Both the position numbers and the translations under genes were made by a program. Below, piece after piece: positions 1 to 5,268 of a stretch of DNA of 64,000 nt. Source of the stretch: Planctomycetaceae bacterium. Its GTDB lineage: Bacteria > Planctomycetota > Planctomycetia > Pirellulales > Pirellulaceae. The stretch covers positions 1 to 64,000 of the forward strand of contig PBOG01000170.1 of the NCBI GenBank assembly GCA_002724245.1, in the 5' to 3' direction. How positions within the stretch are numbered: the stretch's first letter is position 1; each line of letters starts with the position of its first letter. Under the pieces are notes generated by a model, which saw only the letters and a program-made list of their open reading frames with translations, made no database searches and was not told where the DNA came from.

Positions 1-129
1 AGCGGCCGGTTTCTCTTCTGCTGGTGCGTCAGCGGCCGGTTTCTCTTCTGCTGGTGCGTCAGCGGCCGGTTTCTCTTCTGCCGGTGCGTCAGCGGCCGGT
101 TTCTCTTCTGCCGGTGCGTCAGCGGCCGG
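1..129. repeat. 30-bp tandem repeat inside a lipoprotein gene
   Basis: Four complete head-to-tail 30-bp units start at 1, 31, 61 and 91, and a partial unit follows at 121-129. The array probably continues past the window edge. Units differ only at one base (T or C), which on the minus strand is a silent CCA/CCG change in a Pro codon. Read in the minus-strand gene each unit encodes the decapeptide PAADAPAEEK. Because the unit is a multiple of three, copy-number change would alter length but not frame. Confidence 0.95.
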
Positions 130-264
130 ATCCGTTTTGGTCGTCACCGCGGGGCTGGCCGCGTCATCCTGGGCAGTTGGCTGACAACCTGAGATCAAAC
201 TGGTGACAACCATTCCCAATCCAAGCGCAGACAAGGTCAGAAAGATCGCATTCATCCGTTGCAT
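1..264 (-). CDS. Ala/Pro/Glu-repeat lipoprotein, C terminus outside the window
   Basis: The minus strand is open for 88 codons from an ATG at 264 to the window edge. The product begins with a hydrophobic signal ending in a lipobox (ISGC, Cys27), so it is probably a lipid-anchored exported protein. After the Cys comes a short spacer and then the repeated decapeptide PAADAPAEEK, which should form an extended acidic linker like those that hold a domain away from the membrane. An in-frame ATG at 282 would add six residues; 264 gives the more normal signal peptide. The gene lies 42-60 bases after the thioredoxin-like gene on the same strand and may be co-transcribed with it. The functional domain, if any, is beyond the edge, so no function is assigned. 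Confidence 0.75.
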   Translation of the reverse strand, partial: MQRMNAIFLTLSALGLGMVVTSLISGCQPTAQDDAASPAVTTKTDPAADAPAEEKPAADAPAEEKPAADAPAEEKPAADAPAEEKPAA

Positions 265-324
265 GTTAGGTTTATCCCCCATGATGACATTCGCAAATTT
301 GAATTCGGGTAAAACGAGTATCTC

Positions 325-936
325 TTACGGCTGAAGTGGCAAAACACCACTTGTGTATAGATGTGGCTCACGAACCTGCTTCAAGTTTGACTCCAATAAC
401 TCGACGAGTTGACGGTGCGGTTTCGCACGGCGGATCGTACGCGCCGGGTTCCCCTCCCATTTGACTTTGCCATCAGGTCCAATCAGATAACCAATTGGCC
501 AAGCCTTGATGCCATAATTTCGCGTATTTTGATTTGCTTTGTCCCACAACACAAACTGCGGCACTTGTTGCCGAATCACACTTTCTTTCTGTGTCTCTAA
601 CGTCTCTTGCCGTCCCTGGTTAATCTCGATGATCACCAAACCACGCGAAGCGTATTTCCGATGCCACCTGACCAGGTAGTCTCTCAAAGGAGTGCAATTT
701 TCTCAGAAATTGAACTGCAACCACACAACCTGACCCTTTAACTGACTGAGCGTGACTTTCCTGGCCGCATTGATCCAATGTGCATCACTAGACCGTAACT
801 CAGGAGGCCGTTTCCCCAACTGCGAATAATAGTACGGCCTCCTCTGCGCAGGTTCCGCCGCCAACCCATCCGTCAACAAGAAAGCGAGCCCCCAACAAAA
901 GACGACGCTGCGGAGGATTTGGTTCTTGTCTGCCAT
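325..936 (-). CDS. Thioredoxin-like (TlpA/ResA-type) exported protein, candidate selenoprotein with in-frame TGA as Sec78
   Basis: Two open stretches, 706-936 and 325-702, are in the same frame and separated only by TGA at 705-703. Joined, they give a 203-residue exported thioredoxin fold: signal peptide at about 1-29, strand VVWLQFNF, then TGA, then ENC, then a long helix, strand GLVIIEIN, and the cis-Pro region WPIGYLIGPDGKVKWEG. The TGA sits exactly where the first Cys of the CxxC redox motif belongs, giving UxxC. Family knowledge: UxxC is a recurrent redox motif of bacterial selenoproteins, and Sec insertion needs a hairpin just after the UGA; one is present (see 664-679). The start at 936 was chosen to place the signal peptide at the N terminus; ATG at 978 is an alternative. 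Alternatives are a pseudogene or a Cys-to-TGA sequence error. The thioredoxin assignment is firm; the Sec assignment is a strong inference. Confidence 0.72.
664..679 (-). promoter_or_regulatory. SECIS-like hairpin downstream of the in-frame UGA
   Basis: On the minus strand the RNA CUACCU-GGUC-AGGUGG (679 down to 664) forms a 6-bp stem with one U-G pair and a GGUC tetraloop. The loop begins 29 nucleotides after the UGA at 705-703. A GGUC apical loop is the one bound by SelB in the E. coli fdhF element, and bacterial elements lie inside the coding region shortly after the UGA. The fdhF stem also has a bulged U that is not obvious here. Stem and loop are seen directly; the function is inferred. 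Confidence 0.6.
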
Positions 937-1107: not shown

Positions 1108-3330
1108 CTAATTGTTCGCCGTTACTTTAATGTTGTCCAAAAACAGCTCCGCATCTTTGGCATTCCCGAACAACCCTGGACTGCCCGACAAATTAGGAGA
1201 TGCATCGAAAGCCTCGATGGTCCAGGCGTCGGGTTCGTCTTCATCGCGTGGCCAGACCTTGCCATACAAATGAGCCCGCTGCCCTCCCGAATCAAGTTTC
1301 TCGACGGTTGCCTTGAGCTTCATCGTGTACCATTGCCCAGGTTTCCAGGGAAACGGGATCGTTTTTGCCATACGTAACTGAGGCACCCAACTGCGAATCT
1401 GCAGGCTCTTGCTTTCGCCTTTAAGATCCATCGTGTAACCCTGGGCAATCAAGCCGATATCAGGCATCTTGTTTTTCGACAACGCACCTTTGATATCAGC
1501 CTGAATCGTATAATTCGATAGTTCTGGATGTCCAAACCAGCAACGGCTACGAGCCCCTTTGGGAATCGTCGAAATCTTCACCATCGCATTGCTGCCATCC
1601 ACCTCCCGAATCACGTGCCGATACCGCGCACCAACCCATGTCAAAGGTGGAAACTCCAGACCTTCAAAGTCAAAGTTCCATGGTAATGGCGGCACAACGC
1701 GAATTCGCGCCGAGCCACTCAATCCTGCTGCAGCGGCTTCAACGGTAGTCGCATAATGCCCCTCACCGCCGGCGGCAGTAAATACCCCATCCGAAGTCAT
1801 TTCACCGGGGCCCGTAATCTTGAACTCTGCGGCAGTCTCTTTGAGAAACTGGCCATGTCCATTGAATAAGCGGACTGTAAATTTCTGCGCATCGCCCGGT
1901 TTAAGCAGCAATTCAGCCGGAATCACTTGCAGGGTCGCCGGCTTCTCATCTTTGACCGGAGACTCTTGGGCGACCTCAGGTCTCGGCATGACACCCGGCT
2001 CCTTGGTTTTGTCCTGCAGGCAATAGAGCGCACTTGTCGTGGCGACGTAGATCTTGCCATGGGAACAAATAGGAGAAGCGTAGACCTCTTCTCCAGCAGG
2101 CAATCGTTTTCTCTTGACAACTTTTACACCACGTTTCGGGTCGGGGCGAAGGATACTCCAGCCACTTGTTCCAAAGGCGTAGATCTTGCCATCCGCGTAA
2201 AGCGGACTGGCACGCATCGTTGTCCCACCTACCGAATAAGGTCTCCGCATCACGGCCTTACCGGTCTTGATGTCAAGCACATGCAACTTGGCACGATCAT
2301 CGAAACAATAGAGCCTGTCTCCGATAGCAAGCGGGGCACATTTGCCCATCATTAACTCATCTTTGCGCCACAAGGCTCCACCTGACGTGAGATCGCCTTG
2401 GCCACTCCCATCGATCGCAACGACCGCCCCCATCGCGTTTCCAGAGATGTTCTCCTCGCTGTGCCCGGTGAAAACCAAATCACCAACCACGAGTGGCGAA
2501 ACATTCAAACCGCGCCGTGAAAAACGATATTGCCAAATCGGTTCTCCTGTTCTGGGCGCCAGCGCCCATACGGCACCATCTCCCGAACCAAAGACCAATG
2601 CGCGACGCCCCTTGAACACCGTCAAATTAGGGGCACTGTAAGTGGTATCAAAGGGGAGCAAACGGGTTCCTTTGAACCAGGCAACTTCACCAGTCCGCTT
2701 GTCGAACGCCAGAAACCGATGCGCGGGTTTGGCCATCTCGCCCCAGCCGATCACAATCGAACTGATGACAACTAAATCCTCGAAGACGATGGGAAAATTA
2801 GTACGTCCGCCATAAGTGCTGAGCAAACCAAACTTTTCGTGAAGTGGAAATCCCCAAAGTCGCTCACCGGTCTCCCCATTGAGACACTGAAAGTAACCGC
2901 AAACTCCCAGCATGTACACGTTGCCGGTTTCAGGATCTCCAACCACGGAAGACCAACCAACACGCGTATCGGGCACATCAGATAACCAAACGTTAAAACG
3001 GTTCTCCCAAATCGTCTTGCCTGTGACTGCGTCAAGGCAGACGATGCGTTCACCCTCGGTCGCAGTTTCCGGCTCTGCCCGCGCCATCACGTAAAGTCGA
3101 CCGTTCATCACGATCGGTGTGCTGCGCGTTCCCAGATCGTCACGTTTCCAACTGACATTCGTTCCGCGGCGAGGGTCCCAATCATCCGGCAGTCCCGTCT
3201 CGCGGGAAATCCCGTTGAACTCTGGACCCCTCCAATAGTTCCAATCTAACGCATCAGCAGCCGAGGCGGCAGGAAGCGTGGTGAGCAATGCAATACCGGT
3301 AAACAGCAGGTATCCAAGGTGGCGACTCAT
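1108..3330 (-). CDS. Secreted PQQ-like beta-propeller protein
   Basis: A 740-residue exported protein. The start at 3330 (MSRHLG) places a clean signal peptide ending near ASA at the N terminus; the frame is open upstream to 3504, but that extension adds an unrelated hydrophobic stretch. The first roughly 480 residues hold repeated beta-propeller blades of the PQQ-like/outer-membrane-assembly type, with recurring patterns such as CLDAVTGKTIWE, AFDKRTGEVAW and VLDIKTGKAV. A linker with an Ig-like strand pattern follows (VIPAELLLKPGDAQKF), then a C-terminal jelly-roll-like region (SNYTIQADIKG). Such proteins are common in planctomycetes; some are quinoproteins, but metal and PQQ ligands could not be confirmed, so the enzymatic role is open. 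No close operon partner: about 170 bases separate it from the thioredoxin-like gene. Confidence 0.8.
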   Translation of the reverse strand: MSRHLGYLLFTGIALLTTLPAASAADALDWNYWRGPEFNGISRETGLPDDWDPRRGTNVSWKRDDLGTRSTPIVMNGRLYVMARAEPETATEGERIVCLDAVTGKTIWENRFNVWLSDVPDTRVGWSSVVGDPETGNVYMLGVCGYFQCLNGETGERLWGFPLHEKFGLLSTYGGRTNFPIVFEDLVVISSIVIGWGEMAKPAHRFLAFDKRTGEVAWFKGTRLLPFDTTYSAPNLTVFKGRRALVFGSGDGAVWALAPRTGEPIWQYRFSRRGLNVSPLVVGDLVFTGHSEENISGNAMGAVVAIDGSGQGDLTSGGALWRKDELMMGKCAPLAIGDRLYCFDDRAKLHVLDIKTGKAVMRRPYSVGGTTMRASPLYADGKIYAFGTSGWSILRPDPKRGVKVVKRKRLPAGEEVYASPICSHGKIYVATTSALYCLQDKTKEPGVMPRPEVAQESPVKDEKPATLQVIPAELLLKPGDAQKFTVRLFNGHGQFLKETAAEFKITGPGEMTSDGVFTAAGGEGHYATTVEAAAAGLSGSARIRVVPPLPWNFDFEGLEFPPLTWVGARYRHVIREVDGSNAMVKISTIPKGARSRCWFGHPELSNYTIQADIKGALSKNKMPDIGLIAQGYTMDLKGESKSLQIRSWVPQLRMAKTIPFPWKPGQWYTMKLKATVEKLDSGGQRAHLYGKVWPRDEDEPDAWTIEAFDASPNLSGSPGLFGNAKDAELFLDNIKVTANN

Positions 3331-3525
3331 ATGTCTCATTCCGTCGGATTTGTGGCACAAGTCAACGTCGTAAGGATAAAAACCTTTCCACAGGGCCGCA
3401 AGGATCAAGGCAAGCAGCGTACCCAACCATCCCCTTCTTGCCCCTGTCGAAAACACTCTCCCAATAACCCGGCTCGCAGCGATTAGCAATAATCCCAATC
3501 GCACACGGTGCAGACAGAAAATCTC

Positions 3526-3912
3526 TCACGTCTGCGTGGAGTCAGGCGCATCAAACCATTCGTCATCTGGACAAAACTTAGGAAACACGACAATCAAAAC
3601 TCTCATTTTCCCAATGGCCCGGTGGCGTGTTCCTGGTCGAATCAAAACACACATTCCGGGCTGCACATCGATCAAGTCATCATCCAACTGCATCTGCGCA
3701 TCGGGTTCACAATCCAAAAAGAAATAGGTTTCAGTTAACCGCTTGTGATAATGTTCTCTCGCCGTCTCGGATATTTCAGTCACGTGGATCGTGCCCGGAA
3801 AATCCTCCGTATCGACAAAAGCGCGCCGAGCAGTTCCACACGGACAAGCGGTTCCAGGTAAGGAACCAAAATCCACAACTTCATAGCCGCGACTCAAAGC
3901 TGCGTCGGACAT
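3526..3912 (-). CDS. Small cupin-domain protein
   Basis: A 128-residue single-domain protein. It shows the two cupin motifs: the first around HYHKRLTETYFFL, with His and Glu positions suited to metal binding, and the second around PGMCVLIRPGTRHRAIG, with the PG turn and the final His. No signal peptide or membrane segment is seen, so it should be cytoplasmic. An N-terminal CPCGTARRAF segment has two close Cys residues. Cupins of this size bind small ligands or act as isomerases or oxygenases; the substrate cannot be told. It lies upstream of the beta-propeller gene on the same strand with a spacer of about 190 bases, so coupling is doubtful. Confidence 0.8.
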   Translation of the reverse strand: MSDAALSRGYEVVDFGSLPGTACPCGTARRAFVDTEDFPGTIHVTEISETAREHYHKRLTETYFFLDCEPDAQMQLDDDLIDVQPGMCVLIRPGTRHRAIGKMRVLIVVFPKFCPDDEWFDAPDSTQT

Positions 3913-4644: not shown

Positions 4645-5268
4645 ATGAAATGGACCACACTCATTGGATCTCTGGTCATCGGTATCGCACTTAGCTCATC
4701 AAGCCAAGGCGCTGGCCTGCTCGACCGAATCCTGCATAGTAAGAACTGTGGATGCGAAACCAAGCCCGTCCAGAAATCCAAACCAGAGCCCAAGTGTGGC
4801 GCTGAGAAAACAAAAACAAAACACAAGCCGAAATGCGGCACACCAAAACAGAAGCACACTGCGAAACCAAAATCAAAGGGCAAAGGCGGGAACCTGTTGC
4901 AGGACTTGGCGAATCACCTCAACCTCAACGGACATCTCAGTCTCGGTCACCGATCCAAATCGAAATCGACACCCAAAACAAAAGCCCCTTCTCCCAAACA
5001 GAAACACGTCGCAAAACCCAAACCCAAATGTGGTGCGAGCAAGCAAAAACACGTCGCAAAACCTAAATCGAAACCCAAGTGTGGCGTCGCCAAACACAAA
5101 CGTCTTGCTTTACCACGGTTAAAAAGCAACGGTCGTGCTGCTGACGCTCCCAGTCAACCCGCGGCAACCGGAGCTCGCATTAGCCCGATACCACCAGCAC
5201 CCATCGTTGATCCTTCCGCATTCCTGCATCGCAGTGGTCACGTTACGAAAGCCAGCTTTTCTGAATAA
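4645..5268 (+). CDS. Lys/Cys-rich repetitive secreted protein
   Basis: A 207-residue protein with a signal peptide (hydrophobic segment at about 5-20, cleavage near SQGA). The mature chain is extremely basic. It begins with LLDRIL and a CGC pair (Cys35, Cys37), then carries four PKCG modules set in Lys/His-rich repeats of the kind KQKHVAKPK. A short more regular segment (LLQDLANHLNLNGHL) separates two repeat blocks. The C terminus is Pro/Ala-rich. The six Cys residues could bind metal or form disulfides, and the Lys tract suggests binding to acidic polymers such as nucleic acid or surface polysaccharide; this is inference. No enzyme domain is visible. A good AGGAG site precedes the ATG, and a strong hairpin follows the stop, so it is probably monocistronic. 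Confidence 0.8.
   Translation: MKWTTLIGSLVIGIALSSSSQGAGLLDRILHSKNCGCETKPVQKSKPEPKCGAEKTKTKHKPKCGTPKQKHTAKPKSKGKGGNLLQDLANHLNLNGHLSLGHRSKSKSTPKTKAPSPKQKHVAKPKPKCGASKQKHVAKPKSKPKCGVAKHKRLALPRLKSNGRAADAPSQPAATGARISPIPPAPIVDPSAFLHRSGHVTKASFSE

Follow-up and report, generated by a model that had tools for sequence, protein, structure and literature searches.

The window analysed here (the whole stretch of 64,000 nucleotides, positions 1 to 64,000 of contig PBOG01000170.1) begins with minus-strand genes, one of which has a frame that appears broken. The relevant features are as follows:

1..282, minus strand: start of the downstream gene, which runs off the contig; its N-terminus resembles that of a lipoprotein (TSLISGC), and it has Ala/Glu/Pro repeats
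325..936, minus strand: candidate selenoprotein gene, thioredoxin-like (AhpC-TSA/TlpA/ResA-like), with ATG at 936, UGA-Sec as codon 78, and TAA stop at 327-325; 203 residues
664..679, minus strand: SECIS candidate hairpin CUACCU-GGUC-AGGUGG, with its loop GGUC at 673-670, starting 29 nt after the UGA
694..696, minus strand: TGC codon of Cys81, putative resolving Cys of UxxC, from the frame translation and the alignment
703..705, minus strand: TGA within the frame, taken as the Sec codon and first residue of U-E-N-C
859..936, minus strand: putative Sec-type signal peptide (MADKNQILRSVVFCWGLAFLLTDGLA), from sequence inspection and helix 4-21 of the AlphaFold2 model
1108..3504, minus strand: upstream gene for a PQQ_2 (BamB-like) beta-propeller
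3526..3912, minus strand: next gene upstream, with a Cupin_2 domain

The only internal stop of the 203-codon frame (936-328) is the TGA at codon 78, within AAT TTC TGA GAA AAT TGC (F-N-F-U-E-N-C). An earlier note on this DNA had proposed that both halves of a thioredoxin fold are kept in one frame and that the TGA falls on the first Cys of a CxxC site, which a random nonsense mutation would rarely hit. The frame is indeed interrupted only there, and in a 27-sequence alignment U78 occupies the column of the first Cys of CxxC in three homologues (L066, L072, and L073) and in TlpA-type relatives. Between the window gene and its counterpart in genome G002, dN/dS is 0.084 before the UGA and 0.072 after it: there is strong protein-level selection on both sides.

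Excluding the window's own genome, the five best matches in 197 related genomes (83, 68, 58, 47, and 38% identity) have exactly one TGA within the frame, at the same codon; one of them also shows an ordinary TAG stop. When 392 sampled planctomycete genomes were searched with a profile built from these five matches, 10 more TGA-bearing members came up, and in addition 3 members with Cys and 1 with Ser at the Sec position. This makes 16 distinct TGA-bearing members, in each of which U lines up with the first Cys of CxxC. The same TGA is present in 15 other planctomycete genomes at identities of about 28-85%, the most distant being at about 28-35%, which bears out the claim that its placement is not due to chance. 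Across homologues, the position is UGA or Cys, with Ser in one case, and both halves are conserved, including the cis-Pro of the downstream half (P147, nearly invariant). The search of genome contigs for related loci matched only two congeneric genomes. The two closest genomes are public metagenome-assembled genomes labelled Planctomycetaceae bacterium (PAQH01000083.1 and PADE01000121.1), and both have the identical TGA codon.

These results bear on two trivial explanations. If a nonsense mutation had split a thioredoxin-like gene, one would expect what is seen at first sight, i.e., one in-frame stop and two fragments from gene callers. We rejected such a pseudogene, which is extremely improbable given a TGA shared with 15 other genomes, purifying selection on both sides (dN/dS of 0.07 downstream), and the presence of Sec machinery. 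A Cys codon misread as TGA could be suspected in a draft genome of 287 contigs. Yet, independently assembled genomes, such as the two closest ones, carry the same TGA, which rules out a base-calling error, and the hairpin described below occurs only in TGA members; the probability that we give to an error of sequencing or assembly is negligible.

The earlier note had suggested searching the genome (7.79 Mb, 98.8% complete) for the genes of Sec incorporation. All were found with scores over the curated cut-offs, the three protein genes in single copy:

C55:9999-11894: SelB, 366.8 bits, adjoining SelA
C55:12088-13440: SelA, 560.9 bits
C89 (L122:4190-5554, genome G000): SelD, 350.8 bits, with its own in-frame TGA
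C139:90145-90240: tRNA-Sec, 70 bits, in agreement with ARAGORN

The tRNA-Sec gene lies about 26 kb beyond the window end on the same contig. With its TGA, SelD too is a selenoprotein candidate (SCAGUAGKL). SelB is over the cut-off in all six carrier genomes among the relatives (background 93/197; hypergeometric P 0.010) and in 9 of the 10 further carriers of the phylum sample (background 235/392; P 0.04), where the single carrier lacking it is a genome that is 77% complete. These P values are modest, as many genomes of the phylum use Sec: SelB is present in about half to 60% of the sampled Planctomycetota genomes. None of the outcomes that the earlier note had named as counting against a selenoprotein was seen.

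The frame is open whichever residue the TGA is read as, and one might thus invoke a UGA reassigned (e.g., to Trp) or read through by an ordinary tRNA, with no Sec. However, the position aligns with Cys and not with Trp, and the genome has a dedicated tRNA-Sec and SelB. Furthermore, the same gene in G001 terminates at a TGA, so UGA is still a stop in the window genus. We therefore rejected reassignment, which is very unlikely.

In every one of the 16 TGA genes, the loop of the SECIS candidate hairpin starts 29 nt after the UGA, and it is GGUC in 14 of them; the other two, from sister genomes, have GGAC or GGAU, and the closing pair is lost there. Most TGA genes have CACCU-GGUC-AGGUG. Two genes of different genera have CACUU-GGUC-AAGUG, a compensatory change from C-G to U-A that couples a synonymous change of the Leu codon with a change from Arg to Lys. 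By pair counting, 93.8% of cells are paired, and this falls to 20.8-59.4% if the partner is slid; the caveats are that the covariation amounts to one pair and two changed rows and that shuffling columns does not give a true null. RNAalifold independently gives the same six pairs.

The bases of the hairpin also encode the peptide H-L-V-R-W, and a constraint on the protein had therefore to be excluded. In the same genes, AGG is used for the stem Arg in 12/14 cases and for 16/156 of the other Arg codons (P 2.8e-9), and the Val codon is GTC in 14/14, against 103/204 elsewhere (P 1.2e-4), both values being somewhat optimistic since the sequences are related. The Ser member writes the same HLVRW peptide as CAT CTC GTG CGA TGG, in which the hairpin motif is absent, as it is from the Cys members.

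The published model of the bacterial SECIS (PMC13188914) has a stem of 4-16 bp, a loop of 3-9 nt with a G in its first two positions, and a distance of 16-37 nt from the UGA; the candidate fits this geometry, with a 6 bp stem, the loop GGUC, and 29 nt. The model also sets a minimum free energy of -7.5 kcal/mol or below. The window hairpin gives -9.4 over 51 nt, -7.1 over 42 nt, and -5.4 kcal/mol for the 16-nt hairpin alone, while the family member L030 folds at only -4.6 over 48 nt; the last two values are weaker than the threshold. Single-sequence folding of the UGA region showed a stability no better than that of shuffles (z about +0.4). The bare pattern TGA-N(18-34)-CYTGGTCARG is not specific genome-wide, with 31 matches against 20 in the reversed control, and the window gene is the only recognised one among the 31. 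Together, the sharp sequence signature of the family and the SECIS pattern could be used to find such genes.

In summary, the comparisons strongly support that the apparently broken gene is intact and encodes a thioredoxin-like protein, probably secreted, in which the UGA stands for selenocysteine. Standard annotation would split such a gene or label it a pseudogene; here it would be a functional selenoprotein gene, and one shared across Planctomycetota.

The phylogeny of the family requires three changes between Sec and Cys, with many weak forks. L066 (Cys) and L067 (Sec) fall together (97/80), as do L074 (Ser) and L075 (Sec) (99/98); in a tree whose root is not fixed, these groupings suggest that Sec was lost inside a Sec-using family. 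Cys or Ser takes the place of Sec even though SelB is still present in four genomes: G629 (L066 and L078), G456 (L074), G604 (L072/L079), and G642 (L073/L080). Cys and Sec paralogues are both present in each of G629, G604, and G642. The Sec, Cys, and Ser forms provide a natural test set for the decay of the SECIS after Sec loss.

The read-through protein matches the Pfam family AhpC-TSA (PF00578) with 37.1 bits (cut-off 26) over residues 58-160, which span the UGA; the portion after the UGA alone scores below the cut-off. AlphaFold2 predicts a confident thioredoxin fold (pLDDT 88.5), whose best PDB matches, in fold and in sequence, are oxidoreductases of the ResA, DipZ, and DsbE types, and the redox pair and cis-Pro loop are present. 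No NCBIfam model reaches its cut-off for the window protein. The ResA model scores 40 bits against a cut-off of 170, and the protein is thus ResA-like rather than ResA. The hydrophobic N-terminus, noted by inspection of the sequence, where the AlphaFold2 model has helix 4-21, suggests an export signal.

We infer an oxidoreductase function from these relatives. The gene product is very probably an exported TlpA/ResA-like thiol-disulfide oxidoreductase with selenocysteine as the catalytic nucleophile, the Sec reading resting on a UGA conserved at the first active-site Cys, a hairpin at a fixed distance, and a complete set of SelA, SelB, SelD, and tRNA-Sec. It could instead be a Sec peroxidase of the peroxiredoxin type: AhpC-TSA is the best Pfam match, Sec is common among peroxidases, and the fold search also picks up some peroxiredoxins of the Bcp type. 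We find this unlikely, because the motif is UxxC and not the TxxU of Sec peroxiredoxins (PMC13188914), and because the nearest solved structures are of the ResA, DipZ, and DsbE types. A TxxU peroxiredoxin proper was rejected: the site reads FNF-U-E-N-C, without the peroxidatic TxxU/TxxC motif.

As a thiol-disulfide oxidoreductase, the protein would be made when SelB with Sec-tRNA binds the GGUC-loop hairpin while the ribosome is at the UGA, leading to the insertion of Sec, and would be exported by its N-terminal signal. By homology, Sec78 would attack a disulfide, or some other oxidised thiol, in a partner protein of the envelope, Cys81 would resolve the mixed selenenylsulfide, and re-reduction by a donor would follow. 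The partner may be a PQQ-type beta-propeller protein encoded on either side.

The upstream propeller gene is also next to the selenoprotein gene in three other genomes (94, 85, and 62% identity), and the Cupin_2 gene is conserved in G002 and G036. At the corresponding downstream place, G036 encodes a second PQQ_2 propeller lipoprotein (L101:5576-7918), and the gene at the contig end of the window resembles it in its lipoprotein start and repeats. Outside the window genus and G036, this arrangement with PQQ propellers is not kept: in the more distant members, the gene has different neighbours. A dedicated propeller partner is therefore no more than a lead, if the best one to the substrate. Positions 1-125 of the window are a run of 30-bp repeats coding the Ala/Glu/Pro-rich linker of the lipoprotein-like gene, and these repeats probably broke the assembly. 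The plus-strand gene at 4645-5268 encodes a small exported Lys/Cys-rich protein that matches nothing in Pfam. It is conserved close to the selenoprotein operon in G001 and G002 and more weakly in G036, and in G066 a similar place is taken by an exported Cys-rich protein (L103:2303-3190). It is conceivable that the Lys/Cys-rich protein is a substrate.

We also observed a second planctomycete TlpA-like selenoprotein candidate, of about 370 aa (L117, L118, L119, and L120, in G036, G071, G122, and G006, respectively), with the motif F-A-[FY]-G-U-[IV]-N-C-[IV]-R-N-Y-P-W-Y. It has its own downstream hairpin (ACCCUUGGUACAAGGGU / ACCCCUGGUACAGGGGU, with a compensatory change), its Cys homologues are common (AFQCINC), and SelB is present in 4/4 of its genomes.

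Several systems described before are close to this family. A 2016 study (PMC4807772) describes Sec machinery and candidate selenoproteins in planctomycetes: the Porphyra isolates P1 and P2, which share with the window genome the phylum and the full machinery, include in P1 six putative antioxidant selenoproteins, and the main text details FdhA and FmdB. Genomes and the Global Ocean Sampling set have yielded UxxC selenoproteins of PF00578/TlpA-type families (PMC1794560, PMC2398784; 2005-2008), which were tabulated in 2026 (PMC13188914). The hint of novelty in the earlier note, which knew of no planctomycete envelope redox proteins with Sec, is thus right only in part: planctomycete selenoproteins and UxxC Prx/TlpA-like selenoproteins had both been reported already. 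The TlpA/ResA/DsbE Cys forms share with the window protein the thioredoxin fold, the position of the CxxC site, the cis-Pro loop, and an apparent export signal, but the window protein has Sec for the first Cys, and directly before the active site its group is two residues shorter than most relatives (FNF-U vs FSFLH-U). The NCBIfam model NF041054 (ResA-like WAxxUGC_long) is also ResA-like and has Sec in the motif of its name. However, this motif is UGC and not UxxC, and only one of six window-family members matches the model, weakly (6.6e-5). The Prx-like thiol:disulfide oxidoreductase and Prx-like 1 selenoproteins share PF00578 over the gathering score, UxxC, and an origin in marine bacteria; relative to them, and comparing by description only, the window family is planctomycete-wide and has a constant FxxUxxC...HLVRW signature. 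A bolder proposal, tentative and somewhat doubtful as a whole, is that these proteins form a phylum-wide, so far unmodelled family of exported selenoproteins in planctomycetes (FxxUxxC...HLVRW); the same bases would make the protein motif and the SECIS hairpin, and one lineage would serve a dedicated envelope PQQ-propeller operon. Since UxxC selenoproteins are known and no NCBIfam family is over its cut-off, we file the window protein as a new member of a known bacterial selenoprotein type, probably a new subfamily of the UxxC selenoproteins.
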